Shown: piece after piece, positions 40,383 to 53,745 of the stretch
How the letters are laid out: each line of letters begins with the position of its first letter
Position numbering within the stretch: position 1 is the first letter of the stretch
Assembly: GCA_025617745.1 (NCBI GenBank)
Contig: CM046858.1
Location: 28,844,534-28,908,533, forward strand
Source: Heliocidaris erythrogramma
Lineage: Eukaryota; Echinodermata; Echinoidea; Camarodonta; Echinometridae
Direction: 5' to 3'
Length of the DNA stretch: 64,000 nt
Notes under the pieces: generated by a model
Databases searched by the model: none
The model's input: only the letters and a program-made list of their open reading frames with translations
What the model was told of the DNA's origin: nothing
Made by a program: the position numbers and the translations under genes

Positions 40383-41976
40383 CTACTTTGCTTTCTTATG
40401 CGTTTCCTCCAATGGAACGCTAAATAGATAGTTAGACAGGGGGCTGAATTTAAGGTAGCTATAACAAATGACATTAACCCCAAACCGGATATCATTTGTA
40501 TTCAGGAATCTTGGTTGAAGGATAAGCATTATTTTAATTTATATGATTATGAAACGATAAGAAAAGACAGGAAATCTGATAATAAAAGGCAGGGTGGCGG
40601 TTGCCTGACACTAATTAAAAAAGGGTTGTCTTATAAAGTTATTGATTTACCTAAATCTGAGATTGAAATATTAGCCATTGATGTCTACATCAATAACACG
40701 ATTTGGATTTCAGTCGTTAATATTTTTAATCCGTGCTTAAAACTTGAGGATAATTTTTTAGATCATGTGTTTTCTGTCGTTGGCAGCTCTGTTTTTATAT
40801 GTGGTGACTTTAATGGTCATAATACGTTATGGGGAGTTCCAAAACTGATTCGAATGGTCTTAATATAGAAAAAAGCTATGGATAAGGCAACCTTGTGTGC
40901 CTTAATACGGGGTCTGGTACAAGATTAGACGAACACAGTGGTAATACCTCATGCTTGGATTTAACATGGACATCAAATAATATAGCTGCTAAATGTATTT
41001 CGGAAGTTTTAGGAAATAATTTGGGCAGTGATCATTTTCCGATTATAATTGATTGTGGCGTTCAGTTTCCACAGACAAACCTCCCATTCACACCAAAATG
41101 GTCAATAAAACGGGCTGATTGGGGAACATTTCATGCAGAATGTAATGATAATATTTCATATCCAGAACTGGATCAGTCAATTGATACTATTTATCAGCTT
41201 AATATTGCTTTAAATAACTCTATTCCAAAAACTAAGCCCTCTATTAAAAAGAAACATCCTGTAATCTGGTGGAATGCTGCATGTGAACAAGCAGTAAAGG
41301 AAAAGAGAAACGCCCTTAGAACTGTTCGACGGACAAGACCTCCGAAAGATTATATTGAATATAAGAAGAAAAAGGCAGTTTGTCGTCGTGCAGTTAATCA
41401 AACTAAGCCTGCAAGTTGGCAGGATTTTTGTGCTACTATTAATCCACAAACATCTACTAAATGTATTTTGGATAGAGTTAGGAGTTATTTCGCATTCACG
41501 TTCTTTTAAGTCTATCCCTTGTATAAATAAGGGTACAAATATTGCAGTTTCAAATGAAGAAAAGGGAAATATGCTGGTAGATACTTTTAGTAATACAAGT
41601 AGTACAAACAATTACGAGGAGGTTTTTCAGCAAGTTAAAAGGAAATCTGAAGATGATTTCATTATTAGCAATAAAGGAAATGATACGCCAATTAATGATT
41701 ATTTTATAATAACAGAACTCGATGATGCCATTTCTACAGCTAAATGTACTACACCGGGCGCTGATGGTATTGGGGCTAATATTCTGAAAGAGCTTCCACA
41801 TACCACTCGTCAAATTTAACTAGTTATACTAAATGGAATATGGAAAGGAGGTGAATGTCCTAGTCAGTGGAAGGAAGCCGTTTTGATACCCATTTTTAAG
41901 CCAGTTAGGGATCCCTCTGATCCCATTTCATATAGGCCAATTTCATTAACGGCCACTTTGTGCAAGGTTATGGAAC
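40383..41976 (+). pseudogene. LINE-B ORF2, 5' part: endonuclease, linker, start of RT
   Basis: FLQWNAK near 40396 marks the start of the endonuclease. PDIICIQESWLKDKHYF, IWISVVNIFNP, FICGDFNGHNTLWG and LGSDHFPI are its catalytic motifs. Stops at 40424 and 40866 and a frameshift near 41480 break it. The linker has ADWGTFHAECND and the WWNAACEQAVKEKR motif. The RT entry reads TTPGADGIGANILKELP, then the WKEAVLIPIFKPVRDPSDPI and YRPISLTATLCKVME motifs, where the LTR element cuts in. Confidence 0.82.
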
Positions 41977-43028
41977 TGTCACAAAGTAACCAGGAATTTC
42001 AATCGAGCAATTACTAGGGAATAGCATCACTTTCAACCCAAGGGAACAATAGGCTCACAGGCTAGAGTGCTCTGGTTGAATAGGAGAGTTATGTGAATGA
42101 TGTGTGCTGAGCAGTGGTACCTTGTACAATGAGCATGACGAACAAAGAAGCGGACAATTTATGCTGCTCCTCATTGTACCCTTCACAATTGCACTGGTTA
42201 ACAAAAGAACATCCATTCATTGCTATCCTGCAAAAATATGTAGAACAGGTGTCACATAATAGCAGTGAAGGGATGTCCTTTTGTTTACTAGAGCTATTGT
42301 GGAGGGTACAATGAGGAGCTGCATAAATTGTCCGCTCTCTTTGTCACCGTGTTCATAGTGTTGTGCAATGAGCTGTGCATGAGGAATTGTATGTTGTATG
42401 AGCTTGCCACTGGGAGAGCAACTTTGGCACTGGTCAAGGCAGGACCTGCGTGTTGAGTGAGTGTGTGAGATGAGATGTGCAGCAAGTAATTTCTTTTGGT
42501 TGGCATCTATCCTGAAATCCGGGCAAAACAGGCCAGGACAAAACTTCTCACAGCTCCACATCATGGCTCTGACACCAGTAAGTTTCATTTTAGTAATATT
42601 TCCCATTAATTAACCCATATTTTCTTGTACAATGTAAAAAAAAAAAAATTCGGGTGGGGCATCGGAATCAAGGTCAGTTATATCACTGAAAACGTCTAAG
42701 TTTGCATTGTGGCAAGAAGTCATTGAACTTAATCATTTAATATGTGTATTTTAATATCATTTTGTCCAAAGAAGCCAAAACAGTCAAATTTGTTGAATTG
42801 TATACAAGGAAAAAATGTGCTTAATTACAGATAGATAATCTTTTAATTTCGTAGATTTTGAAAAAGATTTAGTGTAGCAATTTTGGTTATATTTACTTAG
42901 AATTAGTCAACTGAATATAAGATTGTTTAAGATGTTTTTGACTGCTAAGGGAAGATGTGTTATGTATATAGCTTTAACAAAGATTTTACATTTATATGGA
43001 TGAAATCCAAGGTTTATTTTGACATATT

Positions 43029-43063
<35 letters not shown>

Positions 43064-44046
43064 ATATTATCCTGAAAACACGTTATGGATATCTATGCAT
43101 TTGGAGCATATAAGAGAATGAGGTAAAATTGTGAATATTCATTCTCTGATTAATTTTGGAATTTGAATAATTTTCTTAGAGTTAAACAATAATAAAGATA
43201 ATATGGAGATATATTTAGAATATAGCGTAAACATTATGCTGTAACTCTTCGGCTGTAATATTGTTTTAACAGTAGTCAGGCAGCTGGGTTCAGGGAATTC
43301 TGGGAATTCCAAAATCTTCTTGGACAGATCTTCCAGGGCAGATCGTCGTACCTCTGAGACGAGATCCTTCGTCTGGACAAGCTACATTTACAACGGAACC
43401 CAACGTCATACTTTGAGCAAGCTTTCGGGAACAGGCGACACAACTCCTTGAACACCCATGGACATTCTCGAGCACAGGAAGACAAGAATGTAAGGAGATT
43501 CCATATGGGTTGAGGACAGTCGCAGACATTTATTTCAATTGTTAAATACTGCACGTGCTAAAAAGTATGATTTTCTAGATTTTCCCAGGAGGAAAAGTTT
43601 GATTATTTGCGTGAGCTCATTATTTTTTGGACTTTTGGGGTATTTGCAGTACTGCTATACCAAAAGAGGGTAATAGTGTATTTTACTGAACTGAGTGGGG
43701 TTTTTTTTTGTTTTGGTAAACCCTTGATATTTACATGTTTAATGCTTTGAATTATCACAAGAATATTTATGTGACAGAATGAATGGATCATTTACATTTG
43801 AATATATAAAGTTTTTGCATATGACTTTATTATACACTTTGAATTGTCATGTGAAATTTATTCTGAATATATTTGTCAGTTAAAAGATGAAATCTAATTA
43901 ATAAATCATATTTTCAAGATTTGAATATACACCAAGCCATTGAATTTGAGTAATTATGTTTGTGTAAGTTCTTAACCAACCTATCTATATTTATACAGAA
44001 CAGTATCTATCGCCAGACATTGCAAAAACAGTGCATAGATCTGACA
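41977..44046 (+). repeat. 5' long terminal repeat (2070 bp, 1831 without its insert)
   Basis: TG...CA ended. Compared with the 3' LTR I count roughly ten substitutions, small homopolymer changes and one 20-bp tandem duplication (3' copy near 53044). The TA microsatellite at 43031-43060 is the spot where the 3' LTR received the Penelope-like element. Confidence 0.92.
42122..42360. mobile_element. 239-bp MITE-like foldback inside the 5' LTR
   Basis: Absent from the 3' LTR (empty site ccttgtgcaatgagctg near 47303). Its ends form imperfect inverted repeats of about 50 bp sharing agcggacaatttatg and gctcctcattgtaccc. The sequence ttgtRcaatgagc appears at both edges (42122 and 42361), giving a candidate target duplication of up to 13 bp with one mismatch. 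It inserted after the LTR element did. Confidence 0.8.
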
Positions 44047-44049
44047 TAT

Positions 44050-44067
44050 TGGCGACCACGAAGGGAC
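44050..44067 (+). promoter_or_regulatory. Candidate primer-binding site
   Basis: tggcgaccacgaagggac begins three bases after the 5' LTR with TGG, which would pair with the CCA end of a tRNA primer. The tRNA species was not identified. Confidence 0.6.
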
Positions 44068-44289
44068 CTTCTCTAGATCTTTTGATAGGTACAGTTAAAA
44101 TGTATAGAAGTTGGTTTTGAATATAGGATTTGCAAATTGAATTGATTTGTTTGTATTTATAATATTTTCTCCATAATAGAAGGTGCATGTCAGGGCTACT
44201 GGAGCTGAGAGGAGTTTTCACCCAAGGCCTGTGCCCGTGACTTCATACCAAATTTTCATAGGTTGGTAAGAACGCTGCAAACTGTTAGT

Positions 44290-46983
44290 ATGGATCGGGA
44301 CAAATTCATAGAACAGGGGAAATGTTTTGGCCTTAGTGGAAATGATCTGATGGTGTATGTTGACGGGTGTGTGAAAGAAGCTCGAGATGAGAGGGCTGAA
44401 ACCAGAGCTGCTGCTAGTGAAGCTAAACGGTTAGAGTCAGAGTTACTTGCGCAACAGATTAGATTAGAGGAGCTTAGGCTAGAGAGTGGGAGTACTCCAC
44501 GATCTGTTCCTAAAGTAAATATTCCCCCTATTCCACCTTTTCAGGATGGTAAGGATGATATTGACAGCTACCTTTGTCAATTCGAAAGACATGCCTCTAG
44601 TGTTGGGTGGAATTCTGATGATTGGGCCTTAGCTTTGTCTGCTTTGTTAACTGGGAAAGCACTTCAGATTATTTCTAGACTTACAGTTTCTGAGGCTAAA
44701 GATTATAGTGCAGTAAAAACCGCCTTATTAAAGGGTTATGATTTAACCGAGGAAGGTTACAGGTTGAAGTTCCGACATGCAAAAATTCAATCGGGAGAAA
44801 CTTATGTTCAATTTGCATCTAGAATTGAAAATTATTTTGATAGATGGCTAGAACTTAGCTGTTATAATGATGATATTGTTGGGGTCAAGAGTCTCATACT
44901 ACAGGAGCAGGTGTTAGATACATGTAACAAAGAGCTGTTGATGTTCATTAAGGAACGTCAACCATCGAATTTGCAGAATCTTTTGAAACTTGCAGATCAG
45001 TATAGAGATGCTCACGTAGACCCAAGGATACGCAGAATGAGAGATAGACCATCTACGGGAACCCAGCAGTCTGACGGAAACAGTTCAAAGAATCGGGGAC
45101 AGGAGAGTCAGTCTCTTGGTGACAGGACTACACCAAAGTCGAGTCGAGGGGAAGAGAAGACCTGCTATTCGTGCAAGAAGGCTGGACATCTTTCCTGGAA
45201 CTGCCCCCAAAAGAAGAAACCAGAGAAAGGAGCAAGCCTAAGTGTTGCAGGACCTGTCAGCGAACCGGCAGACACAGAAACGACTAGTTTGCATCATTCA
45301 TTCTCTGCAGAGAATGAGAAGGGTATGAGTCTAATCGCAAACCAATCTTCTGTCATAGAAAGGAACCTCACCGAAGACGGGATGAGTGTCAAGTTAGCCG
45401 ATGGAGATACCCTGCCACTTCTGTCCGCAGCGGCATGTGGAGAACGCCAAGATGGACTACGAGTCTGCGAAGGTGTCGTCAATGGTACTCTAGTGGAAGT
45501 GTTACGAGACACAGGCTGTACTACGGTAGTGGTGAGACGAGATTTGGTGCGAGAAGACCAACTTTGTAAAGAAGAGAAGATTTGTTTATTACTTGACAGG
45601 ACTGTTCGATCTTTTCAAGTTGCCATTATACAGATTGATACTCCCTACTTCACAGGCGAGGTAGAAGCACTCTGTGTGAAGGATCCAGTCTACGACTTGG
45701 TGCTAGGACAAGTGTCGGGAGTGAGGAAATCGGACGATCCTGACCCTGACTGGACACCGCAGAATCATCAGGCGAACGCAGTGGAAACGAGGGAACAAAA
45801 GAGACAAGCAGCACGGGCTAGACCACCCCTCCATGTACCCAAGCCATTTGATGATGACGTGACTATCGACAGCCTGATCAAAGCCCAAGCCGAGGACGAG
45901 TCGTTATCAACTCCAAGGAAGTGTGCAGACACTGGGGAAAAGAAGATCAGACGGCAAGGTAATTCTTCTCGTTTTCTCTACAACAGGGGAGTGCTGTACA
46001 GGGAATACGTAGACACCAAGCCTGGAGCCGACACCGTCTTACAAGTAGTGGTGCCTGCCAAGTTCAGAGACCAGGTGATGAGACTGGCGCACGAGTCTAT
46101 CTTGGCTGGACACCTTGGTGTGAAGAAAACGTTGGAAAAGATACTCTTGCATTTCTTCTGGCCAGCAATGCATGCAGAAGTTGATCGGTACTGCCGTTCA
46201 TGTGAGCCATGTCAGCGAACTATGCCGAAGGGCAAGGTCAGTAAAGTTCCCCTTGGTTCAACCCCTCTTATTGACGAGCCTTTTCGTAGAGTTGCGATGG
46301 ACTTAGTCGGACCAATAGAACCAGCTACCAGCAAGGGAAACAGATTTATATTGACTGTCATGGATTATGCTACAAGATATCCAGAGGCAGTGGCACTTCG
46401 AAGGATAGATACCCAGATTGTAGCAGAGGCATTGGTCGACATCTCCTCGCGAGTTGGTATCCCACGTGAAGTTCTGACGGACAAGGGCAGTCAGTTCACT
46501 TCGAACTTGATGAAGGAAGTTAGTAGACTCCTTTCGTTCCGCCAGATGACCACTACTCCATATCACCCGGCGTGTAATGGATTAGTAGAGAGATTCAACG
46601 GGACTCTGGAATCGATGCTAAGGAAAATGTGCAAGGAGAGACCCAAGGACTGGGACCATTATCTTAATCCTTTACTGTTCGCTTACAGGGAATCGATTCA
46701 AGAGAGCACTGGATTCTCACCTTTCGAGCTGTTGCATGGCCGTTCTGTTCTTGGACCCCCTAGCCATTCTCCAAGAGCTTTGGACAGGCAATGCAGTCGA
46801 ACTAGAGACGAAGACTACTTATCAGTACGTCTTGGACCTCAAAGTCCGACTGGAGTCAACCTGCAAAGTAGCAAATGGGAGGAGGATCTTGAGATGGGCG
46901 TTGGCTCTTCAACCTCGTTCACTGCCATAAAGAGTAGTGAGAACATAGGAGCTAACTATCTGAGCAGAATCCCAGATCCTTAA
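44290..46983 (+). CDS. Gag-protease-integrase polyprotein of RT-less Ty3/Gypsy element
   Basis: Open frame of 897 codons from ATG 44290 (MDRDKFIEQG). Gag occupies about residues 1-330: an acidic/coiled N-terminus, a retrotransposon gag core (FERHASSVGWNSDDWALALS and on), and a zinc knuckle CYSCKKAGHLSWNC at 45166-45207. The aspartic protease has LRDTGCTTVVV. Integrase has the HHCC finger (HESILAGHLG...CRSCEPC) and catalytic Asp, Asp, Glu in VAMDLVGP, LTDKGSQF and NGLVERFNG. Near 46756 one extra C shifts the frame away from the expected LAILQELW continuation. At about 46880 the sequence jumps from integrase tail to the end of RNase H (RILRWALALQP; ANYLSRIPDP). RT is absent. Confidence 0.88.
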   Translation: MDRDKFIEQGKCFGLSGNDLMVYVDGCVKEARDERAETRAAASEAKRLESELLAQQIRLEELRLESGSTPRSVPKVNIPPIPPFQDGKDDIDSYLCQFERHASSVGWNSDDWALALSALLTGKALQIISRLTVSEAKDYSAVKTALLKGYDLTEEGYRLKFRHAKIQSGETYVQFASRIENYFDRWLELSCYNDDIVGVKSLILQEQVLDTCNKELLMFIKERQPSNLQNLLKLADQYRDAHVDPRIRRMRDRPSTGTQQSDGNSSKNRGQESQSLGDRTTPKSSRGEEKTCYSCKKAGHLSWNCPQKKKPEKGASLSVAGPVSEPADTETTSLHHSFSAENEKGMSLIANQSSVIERNLTEDGMSVKLADGDTLPLLSAAACGERQDGLRVCEGVVNGTLVEVLRDTGCTTVVVRRDLVREDQLCKEEKICLLLDRTVRSFQVAIIQIDTPYFTGEVEALCVKDPVYDLVLGQVSGVRKSDDPDPDWTPQNHQANAVETREQKRQAARARPPLHVPKPFDDDVTIDSLIKAQAEDESLSTPRKCADTGEKKIRRQGNSSRFLYNRGVLYREYVDTKPGADTVLQVVVPAKFRDQVMRLAHESILAGHLGVKKTLEKILLHFFWPAMHAEVDRYCRSCEPCQRTMPKGKVSKVPLGSTPLIDEPFRRVAMDLVGPIEPATSKGNRFILTVMDYATRYPEAVALRRIDTQIVAEALVDISSRVGIPREVLTDKGSQFTSNLMKEVSRLLSFRQMTTTPYHPACNGLVERFNGTLESMLRKMCKERPKDWDHYLNPLLFAYRESIQESTGFSPFELLHGRSVLGPPSHSPRALDRQCSRTRDEDYLSVRLGPQSPTGVNLQSSKWEEDLEMGVGSSTSFTAIKSSENIGANYLSRIPDP

Positions 46984-47142
46984 TGGGGTTAAATGTAGAC
47001 GTAGAGACAGAAATGATTAGCAAGTTTGTTTTTGTTTCCACTTAATTTTTCTGTTTTGTTTTCCCTCGAGTTTTCAAAACGACTCTTTTAGTTAGCTAAA
47101 TTATATATTTAATGAAATTAAAGATAAATAATTAATTTCTTT

Positions 47143-47156
47143 AAGGAGGGGGAAAA
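47143..47156 (+). promoter_or_regulatory. Polypurine tract
   Basis: aaggagggggaaaa directly abuts the 3' LTR TGTCAC, as expected for the plus-strand primer. Confidence 0.85.
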
Positions 47157-47985
47157 TGTCACAAAGTAACCAGGAATTTCAATCGAGCAATTACTAGGGA
47201 ATAGCATCACTTTCAACCCAAGGGAACAATAGGTTCACAGGCTAGAGTGCTCTGGTTGAATAGGAGAGTTATGTGAATGATGTGTGCTGAGCAGTGGTAC
47301 CTTGTGCAATGAGCTGTGCATGAGGAATTGTATGTTGTATGAGCTTGCCACTGGGAGAGCAACTTTGGCACTGGTCAAGGCAGGACCTGCGTGTTGAGTG
47401 AGTGTGTGAGATGAGATGTGCAGCAAGTAATTTCTTTTGGTTGGCATCTATCCTGAAATCCGGGCAAAACAGGCCAGGACAAAACTTCTCACAGCTCCAC
47501 ATCATGGCTCTGACACCAGTAAGTTTCATTTTAGTAATATTTCCCATTAATTAACCCATATTTTCTTGTACAATGTAAAACTAAAAATTCGGGTGGGGCA
47601 TCGGAATCAAGGTCAGTTATATCACTGAAAACGTCTAAGTTTGCATTGTGGCAAGAAGTCATTGAACTTAATCATTTAATATGTGTATTTTAATTTCATT
47701 TTGTCCAAAGAAGCCAAAACAGTCAAATTTGTTGAATTGTATACAAGGAAAAAATGTGCTTAATTACAGATAGATAATCTTTTAATTTCGTAGATTTTGA
47801 AAAAGATTTAGTGTAGCAATTTTGGTTATATTTACTTAGAATTAGTCAACTGAATATAAGATTGTTTAGGATGTTTTTGACTGCTAAGGGAAGATGTGTT
47901 ATGTATATAGCTTTAACAAAGATTTTACATTTATATGGATGAAATCCAAGGTTTATTTTGACATATTTGTATATATATATATATA
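47157..47985 (+). repeat. 3' long terminal repeat, left part
   Basis: Matches the 5' LTR (minus its MITE) up to the TA microsatellite, where the Penelope-like element begins. Confidence 0.92.
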
Positions 47986-48702
47986 TAGAAAAATAAAGTT
48001 CACAACATCATATAGAATACACACACAAGAAGCATGTTTTTATAAAAATTCACAAGCGCTTTCGATTTAATCTCTTCAGGTGAATGAGCCATTGATAGTT
48101 TTGACATGCTTTTATATACACGTATAGTACAGTAATATGCAAATGGACAATGTGTGTGGTATTGTCCAGTAGTTCTTTTGTCGGCTTAATAAGGCTTTGT
48201 TTAAATCTTAGACTAAGCGTTGTACGGTGAGAACTCTAAAATGTTAGGATTCTCAGAGAATCCTATAATCCGTACAATCCAAACCTTTGTAAAGTCACAC
48301 AAAGATCATCGTATAATGATTCACGAGGCCTACACATGATAATAGTAGGCAAGGATGGGTATTTGTAAAACACATAATGAAATGTAGGCTTTAAGGAATA
48401 GTTTTGTTACAAGTATGGTACAATGATATTCTTAGGACAAGATTGAAATATTGTCCTGTATCTGTTTTACGACGTATTGAATCTTAGTTCTAATCTCATA
48501 TTAAATGATGCAAGTAGGAAGTTCTTTGTTGCCAGTTTCTTTGGAAGTCTTAATCTGTACAACTCAACAAATCATAAAGTTATATAACAATTCTTATTAA
48601 TCTGTGACCGTGGGAAAGGCAAATAAAAATGGGAGTCAGTAGAGAAAGAAAATGGAATAAACTAATATATTGACAGGTGTCGAGGATGCAGTGTCTTAAG
48701 GG
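47986..48702 (-). repeat. PLE inverted terminal repeat, left (downstream of the RT gene)
   Basis: Reverse complement of 51944-52658, from tagaaaaataaagttcacaa inwards to gcagtgtcttaagg. It contains a hammerhead motif at 48048-48085 in the sense direction of the RT gene. Confidence 0.93.
48048..48085 (-). ncRNA. Minimal type I hammerhead ribozyme, left copy
   Basis: Read on the - strand: ATTCAC (stem I), CTGAAGA, GAT-taa-ATC (stem II), GAAA, GCGC (palindromic stem III), TT (cleavage dinucleotide), GTGAAT (stem I partner). All core bases of the hammerhead (CUGANGA, GAAA, UH) are present and stem I pairs over six bases. Hammerheads with a very short stem III that act as dimers are established in Penelope-like elements. 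This copy lies 3' of the RT gene in sense orientation. Confidence 0.78.
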
Positions 48703-48842
48703 AGAGGGAGAGAGATATATTGAAATACTTGTACACAAAGAGATAGAGTAGGATGGGGGGGGGGGGTTTGTTGTTTGGAGTTTCGGGGGATAATGGTAAA
48801 TGTGGATGTGGGTGAGAAGGAGTAGTAGGAGAAGCAGTTTTC

Positions 48843-51062
48843 CTACAAAGTATTCAGAGAAGGCATAAATTTTGAAATGAAGTGTTTTTCTTTCAGACAT
48901 CTTTTAATTTTGTCGTCTTCTTTCATTTTGTAAAAGGGTATTATATCGAAATTTGGTTCCTTTGAGCCCGCACAACAATCGATGTGAGCGCTCACTTTAA
49001 GTTGTCGATATTCTTTATGGCGTATTTGTTGCCTATGCACAGTGAGTCTGTGTCGGAGTGTGTCCCCTGTTTCGCCAATATATTGTTCCCCACAGCCATG
49101 GCAAATTAAACAATATATGAGATTCTTTGTAGTGCATGTAAATGGAAAATGTATTTGAAAAGTTTCACTTTTGTGTTTGAAGATGATATGATTAGTTTCT
49201 TTCATATACGGGCAAGTTTTGCATCTTTTGTCGGTACATTTTTTAACACCATTTTTTATATCGAGTTGTGCTTTAGGGGCTGCTCGGGTTAACAATCGTT
49301 TTAGATTCGGGCTTTGGCGTTTACTGGATATCAAATGCACTCCTTTAAACTTTTGCTTTAATTCTCTGTCATTTGACAGGAGGGTAATTGTGTCTTTTAT
49401 CAGTTTGGAGATATTGGGATTATTAGGATTATGCGTGTGAATAAAAGATATAGATTCAGTATTTTCATTTTTTTGCTTACATGATCTTAGTTCTTCGAGA
49501 GACAACTTTTCAGCTTTCACAATCCCATTCTGGATGATTTCCTCAGGATATTCTCTGGCTTTTAACATGTGTTTTAATTCTAATAATCGTTTCTTACGAA
49601 TATCGATATCTGATACTATTGTGCAAATACGTCTTGCTAAATTGTAAGGAACATTTGTTTTACAGTGTCTTGGGTGACAAGATTTGAAGTGTAAGTACTG
49701 GTGTGTGTCTGTAATCTTATAGAATATATCTGTTTTAATTTTGTTCAAATTGTTTATAACCACTATGTCAAGAAACGCTATTTTCTCATTACTAGTTTCA
49801 AACTTAAAAGTGATACTCGGGTGAAGCTGTTGAAGGATATCGTTGAATTGGGCTATATCTCCAAAATCTGCCTTCCAAATAATGAAACAGTCATCAAGAT
49901 ATCTAAGCCAATTTTCCTTTAGATAGGATGTAACTCTAGTGTTGAAGGTCTGTTCGACTTGAGCGTATAGTTTCATTTCCAGATAGCCCATGAATAATGT
50001 GGCATATGTAGGGGCCATTTTGGTTCCCATGGCTGTTCCTCTAATTTGTAAATAAAATTCATTATCAAAGCAAAAAGAATTATTAGTCAGAATAAATTTT
50101 ACAGCATCGATTATGAACTCCTTAGTAAAACGTGAATCAATAACATCCCTATGTTTTTCTAACCAAAAAGTTATGCCTTCTATTCCTGCGTCGTGAGGAA
50201 TATTGGTATAAAGACTATTCACGTCATATGTGACAAGGATTGAGTTTTCATCTACTGATTCAGGTAGGTGGTTCAGAAAGTCTAAATCGTCCCTAACAAA
50301 GCTTGGGACATACTTTGTAAGGGCTTTCAATATGATATCTATGAAATTACTTAGTCTATGTGTAGGACATATTGGGCCAGCGATGATTGGTCTCATTTTA
50401 AGTTTATCCGGCATTTTACATTGAATATAAGGAGAATGAATACTTTTTATTTCATCCTGTATATCTTTGCACTGATGTACTTTTGGTAATCCGTACAGGT
50501 TACTACTTCTAAATTCGAAATTAGTCAGAAAGTCTACCTCATCTTTAGTTAAGCAGTGTTCGTATTTGTTTATCAATTTCTTCATCTTGTTCATAATTTT
50601 GGTATCTATATTCTCGTCTAGTTTCAAATATGTTGATTGGTCTTGTAGTTGGTCCTTCATTTTTGAAATGTAAAAATCTTCATCCATTATTACAAAAGCA
50701 CCTCCCTTGTCAGCCTGTTTTAATATCATGCCAGGTTTGTCTTTCAGACTCTGAAGGCTTTTCCATTCTTGTTTAGATATATTACATTTCTGTTTGGTTT
50801 TTGTACGGTTTTCAAACTCTACTGCTCTTTTTAAAAAATCAATGTAATTGTCCAATGTACGATTCCTATTGGGCTGAGGAAGAAATTTACTCTTATTCTT
50901 TACAATGCTTTCATTTCTAGCTGAAAAATCCGTATTATCACAATCACTTTCTTCTTTACTGAAATATTCCTTCAATCTGAGTTTACGACAAAAACTATAT
51001 ACATCTTGTTTAAGGTCATTAACATTTCTAGTTGGAGTTGGAGTAAATTTCGGACCTTTCAT
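48843..51062 (-). CDS. Penelope-like reverse transcriptase with GIY-YIG endonuclease
   Basis: 739 codons, ATG at 51062-51060. RT motifs in order: ILKQADKGGAFVIMD, NLYGLPKVH, KLKMRPIIAGPICPTHRLS, YDVNSLYTNIPHD (catalytic Asp), RGTAMGTKMAPTYATLFMGY, LRYLDDCFIIW (catalytic YLDD near residue 390) and FLDIVV. A Cys-rich CTDKRCKTCPYM segment leads to the GIY-YIG nuclease: LIYCLICHGCGEQYIGETGD, LRHRLTVHRQQIRHKEY and a late Glu region near KEKHFISKF. The length and domain set match complete endonuclease-bearing PLEs. The RT copies RNA at a nicked target and the nuclease makes the nick. No stop or frameshift is seen. Confidence 0.93.
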   Translation of the reverse strand: MKGPKFTPTPTRNVNDLKQDVYSFCRKLRLKEYFSKEESDCDNTDFSARNESIVKNKSKFLPQPNRNRTLDNYIDFLKRAVEFENRTKTKQKCNISKQEWKSLQSLKDKPGMILKQADKGGAFVIMDEDFYISKMKDQLQDQSTYLKLDENIDTKIMNKMKKLINKYEHCLTKDEVDFLTNFEFRSSNLYGLPKVHQCKDIQDEIKSIHSPYIQCKMPDKLKMRPIIAGPICPTHRLSNFIDIILKALTKYVPSFVRDDLDFLNHLPESVDENSILVTYDVNSLYTNIPHDAGIEGITFWLEKHRDVIDSRFTKEFIIDAVKFILTNNSFCFDNEFYLQIRGTAMGTKMAPTYATLFMGYLEMKLYAQVEQTFNTRVTSYLKENWLRYLDDCFIIWKADFGDIAQFNDILQQLHPSITFKFETSNEKIAFLDIVVINNLNKIKTDIFYKITDTHQYLHFKSCHPRHCKTNVPYNLARRICTIVSDIDIRKKRLLELKHMLKAREYPEEIIQNGIVKAEKLSLEELRSCKQKNENTESISFIHTHNPNNPNISKLIKDTITLLSNDRELKQKFKGVHLISSKRQSPNLKRLLTRAAPKAQLDIKNGVKKCTDKRCKTCPYMKETNHIIFKHKSETFQIHFPFTCTTKNLIYCLICHGCGEQYIGETGDTLRHRLTVHRQQIRHKEYRQLKVSAHIDCCAGSKEPNFDIIPFYKMKEDDKIKRCLKEKHFISKFMPSLNTL

Positions 51063-51227
51063 TCGATATATTGATTACCTTAGGTTCTACTTTTAGATCA
51101 GGTACTTTTTTAGTTTCACAGTCAGTATTAGGAGGGTTGTTGTTAATAGTACATGTAGGCAGATGATCTTTATCATTATCAATATATAAACTATCAAAAC
51201 GGTTACTTAATGGGATGTTTTGGGGGA

Positions 51228-51710
51228 TTACCGCTTGTGGTATGGGTTTCGACCCTCTTGAAAATGGCGATGTCCATCACGTTTCTTGGAGTTTTGACGC
51301 CAGCCCGTGGAAGGTGATGGCTGTTGCCTTACTGCATCCGCATAACTGCTATACCTGCCATCAGCTGGTTGCTGGGCAGCGGATGCGTTGCGATGTTGGT
51401 AGCGGTTTCTATCTTCTTGGAAATGGCGATGCCCACCACGTCTATAGCTTTGGCGTCGGCCTGTGGACGATGACGGTTGTTGTCTCCCTCCATCTGCAAA
51501 CCTATCATCGACTCGTTGCTTGGTAGAAGATTTGTCGTTGCGGCGGTCGTAGTTGTTGGCCCTATGGAAGTTGCTGGCATGGGGGTTCCAATTTTGATAG
51601 GTGTCGGTGGTCTGGTGGAAGCGATGGCTTACATTCGGTTTATACGCCCTTCCACTTTGGCGGCGATCATTGTTCATTTTAAGTTGTGGGGACGTAGTTC
51701 CTGTTGCCAT
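51228..51710 (-). CDS. PLE basic low-complexity ORF with internal tandem repeat
   Basis: 160 codons from ATG 51710, which sits in a good initiation context (accATGg). The protein is rich in Arg, Gln, Ser and His. Its second half has two tandem units of about 37 residues sharing RQQPS.STG.RQ and GHRHFQE.RN. It ends 165 bp before the RT frame. No family is recognised; position suggests an ORF1-like nucleic-acid-binding protein. It overlaps the upstream frame (51674-51958) by 37 bp in another frame. Confidence 0.55.
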   Translation of the reverse strand: MATGTTSPQLKMNNDRRQSGRAYKPNVSHRFHQTTDTYQNWNPHASNFHRANNYDRRNDKSSTKQRVDDRFADGGRQQPSSSTGRRQSYRRGGHRHFQEDRNRYQHRNASAAQQPADGRYSSYADAVRQQPSPSTGWRQNSKKRDGHRHFQEGRNPYHKR

Positions 51711-51958
51711 GGTTGTCGGACGAATTGTGACATATTGTCCTCTGTCATTTCTTGCCGGTGTCTCGCGTTCTTACCATGTCTCCCTTCCGGGTCATTGATA
51801 GGGCGAATTGATTTGGTCCACCATTCTCTCTTTTGATTCCATTTCATAAGTAGATGGTCTTGGTTGTGAGAGGTTTCCTCAGTCCACATTTCAATCAGCA
51901 TTTCCTTTATGTCACTGTATCGAATGTCGTTTAGGTTCTCCTCCTTAAGACACTGCAT
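51674..51958 (-). CDS. PLE N-terminal small ORF
   Basis: 95 codons from ATG 51958 (MQCLKEENLNDIRYSDIKEM), starting just inside the right inverted repeat. It is charged, with WTEETSHNQDHLLMKWNQKR and a Glu/Met-rich end, and overlaps the basic ORF. It may be the first ORF of the element, or the two may be one frame split by an indel. No family recognised. Confidence 0.45.
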   Translation of the reverse strand: MQCLKEENLNDIRYSDIKEMLIEMWTEETSHNQDHLLMKWNQKREWWTKSIRPINDPEGRHGKNARHRQEMTEDNMSQFVRQPWQQELRPHNLK

Positions 51959-52658
51959 CCTCGACACCTGTCAATATATTAGTTTATTCCATTTTCTTTC
52001 TCTACTGACTCCCATTTTTATTTGCCTTTCCCACGGTCACAGATTAATAAGAATTGTTATATAACTTTATGATTTGTTGAGTTGTACAGATTAAGACTTC
52101 CAAAGAAACTGGCAACAAAGAACTTCCTACTTGCATCATTTAATATGAGATTAGAACTAAGATTCAATACGTCGTAAAACAGATACAGGACAATATTTCA
52201 ATCTTGTCCTAAGAATATCATTGTACCATACTTGTAACAAAACTATTCCTTAAAGCCTACATTTCATTATGTGTTTTACAAATACCCATCCTCGCCTACT
52301 ATTATCATGTGTAGGCCTCGTGAATCATTATACGATGATCTTTGTGTGACTTTACAAAGGTTTGGATTGTACGGATTATAGGATTCTCTGAGAATCCTAA
52401 CATTTTAGAGTTCTCACCGTACAACGCTTAGTCTAAGATTTAAACAAAGACTTATTAAGCCGTCAAAAGAACTACTGGACAATACCACACACATTGTCCA
52501 TTTGCATATTACTGTACTATACGTGTATATAAAAGCATGTCAAAACTATCAATGGCTCATTCACCTGAAGAGATTAAATCGAAAGCGCTTGTGAATTTTT
52601 ATAAAAACATGCTTCTTGTGTGTGTATTCTATATGATGTTGTGAACTTTATTTTTCTA
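51944..52658 (+). repeat. PLE inverted terminal repeat, right (upstream of the RT gene)
   Basis: Inverted copy of 47986-48702. Differences I noticed: a t/c change near 52293 and changes near 52450-52464. It probably carries the promoter of the element. Confidence 0.93.
52559..52596 (+). ncRNA. Minimal type I hammerhead ribozyme, right copy
   Basis: Identical to the left copy but on the + strand: stem I ATTCAC (52559-52564) with GTGAAT (52591-52596), core CTGAAGA (52565-52571), stem II gattaaatc, GAAA (52581-52584), GCGC (52585-52588) and TT, predicted cleavage after 52590. It is antisense to the RT gene, so it could act only in a transcript from the opposite strand. Confidence 0.75.
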
Positions 52659-52710
52659 CATATTTTAACACTGCACTTTGTAGGAACTTTGTTCCTGTAA
52701 ACACTTTACG

Positions 52711-53740
52711 ATATATATATATATATATATATTGGAATATTATCCTGAAAACACGTTATGGATATCTATGCATTTGGAGCATATAAGAGAATGAGGTAAA
52801 ATTGTGAATATTCATTCTCTCATTAATTTTGGAATTTGAATAATTTTCTTAGAGTTAAACAATAATAAAGATAATATGGAGATATATTTAGAATATAGCG
52901 TAAACATTATGCTGTAACTCTTCGGCTGTAATATTGTTTTAACAGTAGTCAGGCAGCTGGGTTCAGGGAATTCTGGGAATTCCAAAATCTTCTTGGACAG
53001 ATCTTCCAGGGCAGATCGTCGTACCTCTGAGACGAGATCCTTCCCTCTGAGACGAGATCCTTCGTCTGGACAAGCTACATTTACAACGGAACCCAACGTC
53101 ATACTTTGAGCAAGCTTTCGGGAACAGGCGACACAACTCCTTGAACACCCATGGACATTCTCGAGCACAGGAAGACAAGAATGTAAGGAGATTCCATATG
53201 GGTTGAGGACAGTCGCAGACATTTATTTAAATTGTTAAATACTGCGCGTGCTAAAAAGTATGATTTTCTAGATTTTCCCAGGAGGAAAAGTTTGATTATT
53301 TGCGTGAGCTCATTATTTTTTTGACTTTTGGGGTATTTGCAGTACTGCTATACCAAAAGAGGGTAATAGTGTATTTTACTGAAATGAGTGGGGTTTTTTT
53401 TTTGTTTTGGTAAACCCTTGATATTTACATGTTTAATGCTTTGAATTATCACAAGAATATTTATGTGACAGAATGAATGGATCATTTACATTTTAATATA
53501 TAAAGTTTTTGCATATGACTTTATTATACACTTTGAATTGTCATGTGAAATTTATTCTGAATATATTTGTCAGTTAAAAGATGAAATCTAATTAATAAAT
53601 CATATATTCAAGATTTGAATATACACCAAGCCATTGAATTTGAGTAATTATGTTTGTGTAAGTTCTTAACCAACCTATCTATATTTATACAGAACAGTAT
53701 CTATCGCCAGACATTGCAAAAACAGTGCATAGATCTGACA
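52711..53740 (+). repeat. 3' long terminal repeat, right part
   Basis: Continues the LTR from the TA microsatellite to TGACA at 53740. It has a 20-bp tandem duplication (ccctctgagacgagatcctt, about 53024-53063) not found in the 5' LTR. Confidence 0.92.
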
Positions 53741-53745
53741 GGAAC

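Follow-up and report, generated by a model that had tools for sequence, protein, structure and literature searches.

A Gmr1-type Ty3/gypsy family without reverse transcriptase in the sea urchin Heliocidaris erythrogramma that probably spread through RNA with the help of its relatives

An older copy of a non-autonomous Ty3/gypsy family lies in the 64,000-nucleotide stretch of Heliocidaris erythrogramma DNA analysed here (hereafter the window). This family carries no reverse transcriptase (RT) and is of putative Gmr1 type, judging by domain order and a SCAN-like gag. It arose once, spread through RNA and most likely borrowed RT from its relatives, a reading to which we give a probability of about 0.86 on the sequence comparisons below. 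As in other non-autonomous elements with a partner, a needed enzyme is absent, several insertions are independent and the cis signals are common with the RT-bearing partner.

The element in the window extends over 41977..53740 on the plus strand, as a 5' LTR, an internal region and a split 3' LTR. It has the features of an LTR retrotransposon, namely paired LTRs with TG...CA ends, a primer-binding site (PBS), a polypurine tract (PPT) and a target-site duplication (TSD). The duplication, GGAAC at 41972..41976 and 53741..53745, is perfect, as the first-pass annotation had stated. That annotation placed the element at 41977..47156; the start holds, and the end has to be moved, since the element continues through the split 3' LTR to 53740. 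The 5' LTR (41977..44046, plus strand, 2070 nt) runs from TGTCACAA to ATCTGACA. An insert of about 227 nt lies within it (42135..42360, plus strand) and has inverted-repeat arms; only the 5' LTR of the window copy carries this fold-back insert, which has near-copies of TTGTGCAATGAGC at both ends and is absent from the window 3' LTR. An intron, GTAAGT...TTTTAACAG, also lies in the LTR (42578..43272, plus strand, 695 nt in the window) and is precisely missing in other copies. The internal region (44047..47156, plus strand) begins with the PBS TGGCGACCACGAAGGGA (44050..44066, plus strand), whose 17 nt can pair with the end of tRNA-Arg(UCG) including the added CCA, and finishes with the PPT region (47136..47156, plus strand), which ends in AAGGAGGGGGAAAA.

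The two parts of the 3' LTR (47157..47987 and 52711..53740, plus strand) are separated by a Penelope-like element on the minus strand (47988..52710, ends approximate), which sits in the intron of the 3' LTR, within a TA repeat. Its frame for RT and GIY-YIG lies at 51062-48843 on the minus strand, with Pfam matches to RVT_1 (E 4.3e-8) and GIY-YIG (E 1.9e-5). The LTR pieces of the window element differ at 2/158, 4/686 and 7/987 sites, thus at 13/1831 plus small gaps, close to the ten or so differences over 1.8 kb counted earlier by eye. On the left, endonuclease matches (PF14529) mark positions 40515-41976 as part of a non-LTR retroelement into which the element was inserted; the right flank, from 53746 on, is RT-like by look. 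AATAAA is present at LTR positions 1215 and 1924, together with TA-rich stretches, which is compatible with two U3/R/U5 layouts. A U3 reaching to about the end of the intron would be favoured by the mosaic breakpoint described below, which lies close to that end.

A single open frame (44263..46983, plus strand) contains gag with a SCAN-like domain and a CCHC knuckle, then a DTG motif, the zinc domain and DDE core of integrase, a frame-shifted tail and, as the only thing beyond integrase, an RNase H remnant. Its length is 906 codons when counted from a TTG and 897 when counted from the ATG at 44290, the first in the frame. Pfam searches matched gag to the SCAN-like PF02023 (E 1.6e-7; 31.5 bits, cut-off 27) and the integrase to H2C2 and rve, and the CCHC knuckle (E 0.003) fell slightly short of its cut-off. 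The DTG at 45508-45516 is presumably the protease motif, the Pfam protease match reaching only E 0.23. The candidate catalytic residues D680, D740 and E776 are spaced by 59 and 35 residues, which we take to be the DD35E integrase pattern. RT families of Pfam gave zero matches to the frame, and positions 46600-46980 of the window had no Pfam match. The earlier description of one 897-codon frame with gag, DTG motif, DDE residues and no RT is therefore borne out.

Within the frame lies a deletion junction, AAAGTAGCA (46865..46873, plus strand), where RT-bearing relatives have 1668-1671 nt extra between imperfect 9-nt repeats. We searched the 1.064-Gb genome with 28 nt spanning this junction, allowing up to three mismatches. 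Ten places were found, each with 0 mismatches, and the reversed-pattern control gave none. Copy counts from such DNA searches are lower bounds (40/46 candidates were scored in one search). The whole internal region is kept in seven RT-less copies, that is the window copy and L009-L014, whose internal regions are 98.3-98.4% identical to that of the window by blast. Among the others, L015 is 5'-truncated, L016 has deletions of its own and L017 is a fragment. The first-pass annotation had proposed this junction search and a search for full-length relatives with RT, and both succeeded. A junction at one locus only, which would have spoken against its reading, is contradicted by the ten places, and an assembly collapse is very unlikely. 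Of the two histories that it had offered, loss of RT after insertion is refuted by the same junction at ten loci, and mobilisation of a deleted RNA by the RT of another element finds support in the separate insertions, LTR intron loss and mosaicism with RT-bearing relatives reported below. A private deletion or a collapsed assembly in one provirus, with which the window alone would be compatible, can be set aside with near certainty, because exactly the same junction stands at ten loci as separate insertions, five copies besides the window have their own TSDs, and the 1-kb flanks of the eight copies compared out of ten (window, L009-L014 and L016) have no mutual similarity at E 1e-6.

RT-bearing relatives, about 96-97% alike upstream, reveal the lost part. 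In L019, L020 and L021 the two sides of the junction are 1668-1671 nt apart, meaning that the missing stretch of about 1.7 kb is present; part of it is gone in L022, and L023 and L024 have parts only. Its left end reads AAAGTAGCA in L019 and AAAGTCGCA in L020-L022, and its right end AAAGTTGCA in L019-L021 and AAAGTAGCA in L023 and L024, so that the loss ran between imperfect 9-nt repeats. The missing stretch of L020 encodes, in this order, SH3_Tf2-1 (E 2.1e-7), RVT_1 (E 5.6e-32) and RNase H (E 2.6e-35), which puts integrase upstream of RT in the RT-bearing relatives; the first-pass annotation had spotted the integrase-RNase H junction and missed this implication. As this comparison shows, the RT-less family has lost the C-terminal domain of integrase together with RT and the larger part of RNase H. 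In addition, a fifth C in GGACCCCCTAGC (46753..46764, plus strand) makes the RT-less frame depart from the integrase frame just past the core. With SH3_Tf2-1 in the deleted stretch and this fifth C, the RT-less integrase is thus truncated. The "full integrase" first annotated has to be given up, since the zinc domain and DDE core are present and the C-terminal SH3-like domain is gone; an integrase complete in its N-terminal, core and C-terminal domains is not found in the window element. The notion of a class of elements carrying its own integrase is weakened by the missing C-terminal domain and by the lack of demonstrable selection.

The RT-bearing copies are themselves variably preserved. 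An uninterrupted single frame was seen in only 2/4 loci examined. Their LTR pairs differ at 2/1148 (L020), 5/1818 (L021), 21/1820 (L019) and 13/1148 sites (L022), and their TSDs are perfect in L020 and L022 and agree at four of five letters in L019. L021 is part of a tandem LTR-internal-LTR-internal array. A related element, about 70-76% alike and with an internal RT deletion, is present as L025/L026. It was rejected as a second RT-deleted lineage, being shared through a duplication of about 9.5 kb (97.5%) that includes flanking satellite DNA with a period of about 54 bp.

Several features indicate that the RT-less copies moved through RNA. All six copies scorable for TSDs have perfect ones, and these are all different (GGAAC, CTCAT, CTCTG, CAGAC, GTCTT and CCGAC). 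The 3' LTR of L014 is damaged and no duplication is seen, so its independence is judged from its unrelated flanks; L015-L017 are not scorable. The LTR pairs of L009-L013, with both LTRs whole, differ at 2/1153, 1/1151, 1/1152, 0/1835 and 1/1861 sites, respectively. Near-identical pairs (0-2 substitutions) are thus found in 5/6 TSD-scorable copies, the exception being the window copy. Moreover, the LTR intron is precisely absent from both LTRs in L009, L010 and L011 as well as in the RT-bearing L020 and L022. Its genome-wide pattern matches, with up to two mismatches allowed, amounted to 43 spliced junctions, 53 donors and 55 acceptors, and reversed patterns gave 0. LTRs with and without the intron are similarly numerous, many of them distant from the fetched copies, and solo LTRs are probably among them. 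The GT-AG stretch is lost exactly in both lineages, most plausibly because spliced RNA was reverse-transcribed, and the precise absence of the intron from many copies shows that copying went through RNA. We met no described case of an LTR intron in the literature, judged mostly by titles and abstract openings, which is weak evidence of novelty.

Multiplication at the DNA level through segmental duplication, in place of retrotransposition, is an extremely improbable account of these copies. Such duplications do occur in the genome, as in L025/L026, yet the flanks of the RT-less copies are unrelated, their 5-bp TSDs differ and three young copies are intronless in both LTRs. Duplication is refuted for the six TSD-bearing copies; for L014 and L016 the judgement comes from their flanks.

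The RT-less copies also share marks that separate them from their relatives. The fifth C in GGACCCCCTAGC is present in 9/9 RT-less copies having the site, against four Cs in 4/4 RT-bearing copies. The RNase H remnant is shorter by 10 nt in 10/10 RT-less copies and in the LTR-side fragment L018, a loss seen in 0/4 of the RT-bearing L019-L022. We read the RT deletion as having arisen a single time, because the junction, the fifth C and the 10-nt loss are shared derived marks. The same deletion might instead have occurred repeatedly in RT-bearing elements, by splicing or at a 9-nt-repeat hot spot, leaving by-products without a lineage, and the imperfect 9-nt repeat at both ends would suit such recurrence. 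We consider this very unlikely, given the fifth C and the 10-nt loss, neither of them seen in L019-L022, and given that the RT-less copies cluster apart, both in the first part of the LTR and beyond position 767 of the internal region. Splicing was discarded as the source of the deletion because inspection of the junction revealed no fitting GT-AG pair.

RT-less and RT-bearing copies have their priming signals in common. A 22-nt stretch at the PBS is identical in the window and in nine further RT-less and RT-bearing copies, the PPT region differs at 2/21 letters, and the LTR ends TGTCACAA and ATCTGACA are shared, with the exception of ATCTAACA in the 5' LTR of L019. The predicted primer is tRNA-Arg(UCG), of which 14 nt plus CCA are matched. 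Two tRNA scans near the first matches of the 14-nt primer sequence found no tRNA, and the primer was identified through a tRNA-Arg array on C18. This array (L048, C18:15.23 Mb) consists of tandem tRNA-Arg(TCG) genes with a period of about 156 nt; the 14-nt tRNA end has 563 matches in the genome, of which 519 are on the reverse strand. Relatedness, recombination and these shared priming signals make it most likely that RT-less RNA was copied by the RT of the relatives.

Recombination between the two lineages was assessed at informative columns, defined as those separating the older RT-less copies (window and L016) from the RT-bearing copies. Each column within a gap counted as one, a column of the internal region could qualify without L019, and the intron columns were defined without the intronless L020 and L022. 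The first LTR part of L009-L014 is of RT-less state at 11/11 columns (9 substitutions). The intron, absent from L009-L011, is likewise of RT-less state at 122/122 columns in L013 and L014 and at 118/122 in L012 (27 substitutions), the remaining 4/122 of L012 having the RT-bearing state and counting against the pattern. In the last LTR part of L009-L014, 90 or 91 of 92 columns (51 substitutions) are of RT-bearing state, and the other one or two match neither group. This state continues in the internal region at 28/28 columns up to position 702 (six of them one gap), and from 767 on the RT-less state is found at 50/50. The homologous position of this internal breakpoint in the window is 44748..44813 (plus strand), and the window copy is of the non-recombinant type. 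Left of position 734, L009-L014 are closer to the RT-bearing copies than right of it (Fisher p 9.5e-4 to 1.6e-5) and more distant from the window copy (p 1.2e-6 to 1.7e-7), and no such change is seen in the window copy or in L016 (p 0.31 and 0.35); this cut was picked once the column pattern was known, and the p-values are descriptive. The last LTR parts of L015, L016 and L017 are 95.1, 96.2 and 94.8% identical to that of the window, against 86.5, 87.8 and 81.5% to the other type (first 220-330 nt only for L015 and L017). The window type is therefore the older one in the RT-less family.

L009-L014 are thus mosaics that took U5, PBS, leader and 5' gag from the RT-bearing lineage, in a tract forming one contiguous RNA piece. 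The mosaic could also be due to gene conversion or crossing-over of proviral DNA, and it would then tell nothing of shared particles. This is the less likely origin, though one to be taken seriously. It is compatible with the sequence, and the tandem array at L021 is a product that DNA recombination can make. On the other hand, the RT-bearing tract coincides with a single stretch at the RNA 5' end (post-intron LTR, PBS, leader and 5' gag) and the two LTRs of any one copy agree, as expected from strand transfer. A chimeric provirus formed in DNA and then retrotransposed would look identical.

Taken as a borrower of its relatives' RT, the family most likely had the following history. About 1.7 kb was lost once, between two 9-nt repeats of a gag-PR-IN-RT-RH element, as the comparison with RT-bearing copies shows. 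The RT-less copies afterwards spread via RNA, as evident from their separate insertions, TSDs, near-identical LTR pairs and intron loss, their RNA retaining the primer site and LTR ends of the RT-bearing relatives and nearly the same PPT. This RNA would be packed with the RNAs of the relatives in shared particles, primed by tRNA-Arg(UCG) and copied by the relatives' RT. The relatives' integrase probably joins the RT-less cDNA, because the RT-less integrase is without its C-terminal domain. As the mosaic shows, one RT-less lineage acquired U5, PBS, leader and 5' gag from an RT-bearing relative, possibly by template switching in a mixed particle, and this recombinant lineage gave the six near-identical young copies.

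A 924-codon stop-free frame is present in 6/7 whole RT-less copies, the other, L010, having a frameshift that may postdate its insertion. In the gag3'-PR-IN block, pN/pS is 0.26-0.31 between RT-less and RT-bearing copies and 0.23-0.50 among RT-bearing copies. Among the window copy, L012 and L016 it is 0.40-0.88, and 0.52-1.49 for integrase alone, on few changes. Pooling of the RT-less copies by hand yields about 8 synonymous changes against 16 non-synonymous ones (binomial p 0.16 versus neutrality). With this p-value and so few changes, purifying selection on the RT-less frame is not detectable, and the youth of the copies suffices to explain an open frame. We lean towards the view that the gag-PR-IN frame is a passive passenger without a role, open merely because the copies are young. 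The pN/pS values, the frameshift of L010 and an integrase without C-terminal domain all agree with this, against which stand the stop-free frame in most whole copies and the precedent of mouse IAP 1-delta-1, where such a remnant can act in cis (PMC6466679). By analogy, the shortened gag-PR-integrase product might work in cis, packing its own RNA and entering mixed integrase complexes to which the partner supplies full integrase and RT. This would make a stable two-part animal system in which recombination refreshes the helper-matching block of U5, PBS, leader and 5' gag; we hold this idea to be rather doubtful.

The family differs from several known types of element. LARD and TRIM elements have no coding capacity, whereas the window element has a 906-codon frame. 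Ginger-type DNA transposons with an integrase have terminal inverted repeats and no LTRs, whereas the RT-less family has direct LTRs of 1.15-2.07 kb. IAP elements are an endogenous retrovirus group and not Ty3/gypsy, and LTR swapping in soybean is reportedly the subject of Du et al. 2010, to go by its title. The Gmr1 clade has integrase upstream of RT (PMC6238403), and SCAN is reported as derived from a Gmr1-like gag (PMC3424704). The gag-PR-IN-RT-RH order of the RT-bearing relatives, with domains run on L020, and the SCAN-like gag of the window element agree with this clade, from which the window element differs in being without RT. A deuterostome host also agrees with the Gmr1 group, as it is titled in a reference cited by PMC6238403. 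In line with such a host, mitochondrial COX1 on C24 is best read with AAA as Asn and ATA as Ile, which is the echinoderm/hemichordate code; its frame stays open under both codes tried, and conserved residues decide between them.

A 1.9-kb gag/pol deletion in IAP 1-delta-1 likewise leaves one fused gag-pol frame (PMC6466679). It affects part of gag and pol and not the integrase tail, RT and RNase H, and the cis effect was demonstrated for IAP, whereas the RT-less family is known from its sequence. In plants, BARE-2, Tos17, TR-GAG, LARD and others use the proteins of a relative for their propagation, or are believed to do so (PMC3977881, PMC8704663, PMC6696364). Unlike the RT-less family, Tos17 is reported to be without gag, as is BARE-2 per a cited title, and TR-GAG has gag only, whereas the window frame has H2C2 and rve. 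Among the plant elements described in these sources we met no gag-PR-integrase core without RT. Some recent Retand elements are without some coding domains (PMC11963269). For Athila of Arabidopsis, PMC2410132 describes non-autonomous families with intact frames and recombination of lineages, as here; these plant elements keep gag or gag-env, unlike the RT-less family with its integrase. Recombination in bursts is reported for Onsen (PMC5668417). Trans-mobilised deletion forms are thus already known from IAP 1-delta-1, BARE-2 and Athila. In a literature judged mostly by titles and abstract openings, which is weak evidence of novelty, we met no described animal Gmr1-type element with a gag-PR-integrase core and no RT, and we judge such a family to be an apparently new form of a well-known type.

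The deletion, the RT-holding relatives and the RNA copying seen in intron loss together record, in one animal genome, how a deleted retrotransposon turns into a parasite of its parents. Recombination renewed its packaging and priming region shortly before the latest spread. The LTR intron offers a simple genomic counter of retrotransposition, and a deletion form with the integrase N-terminal domain and core but no RT makes the cis help of such remnants directly testable.
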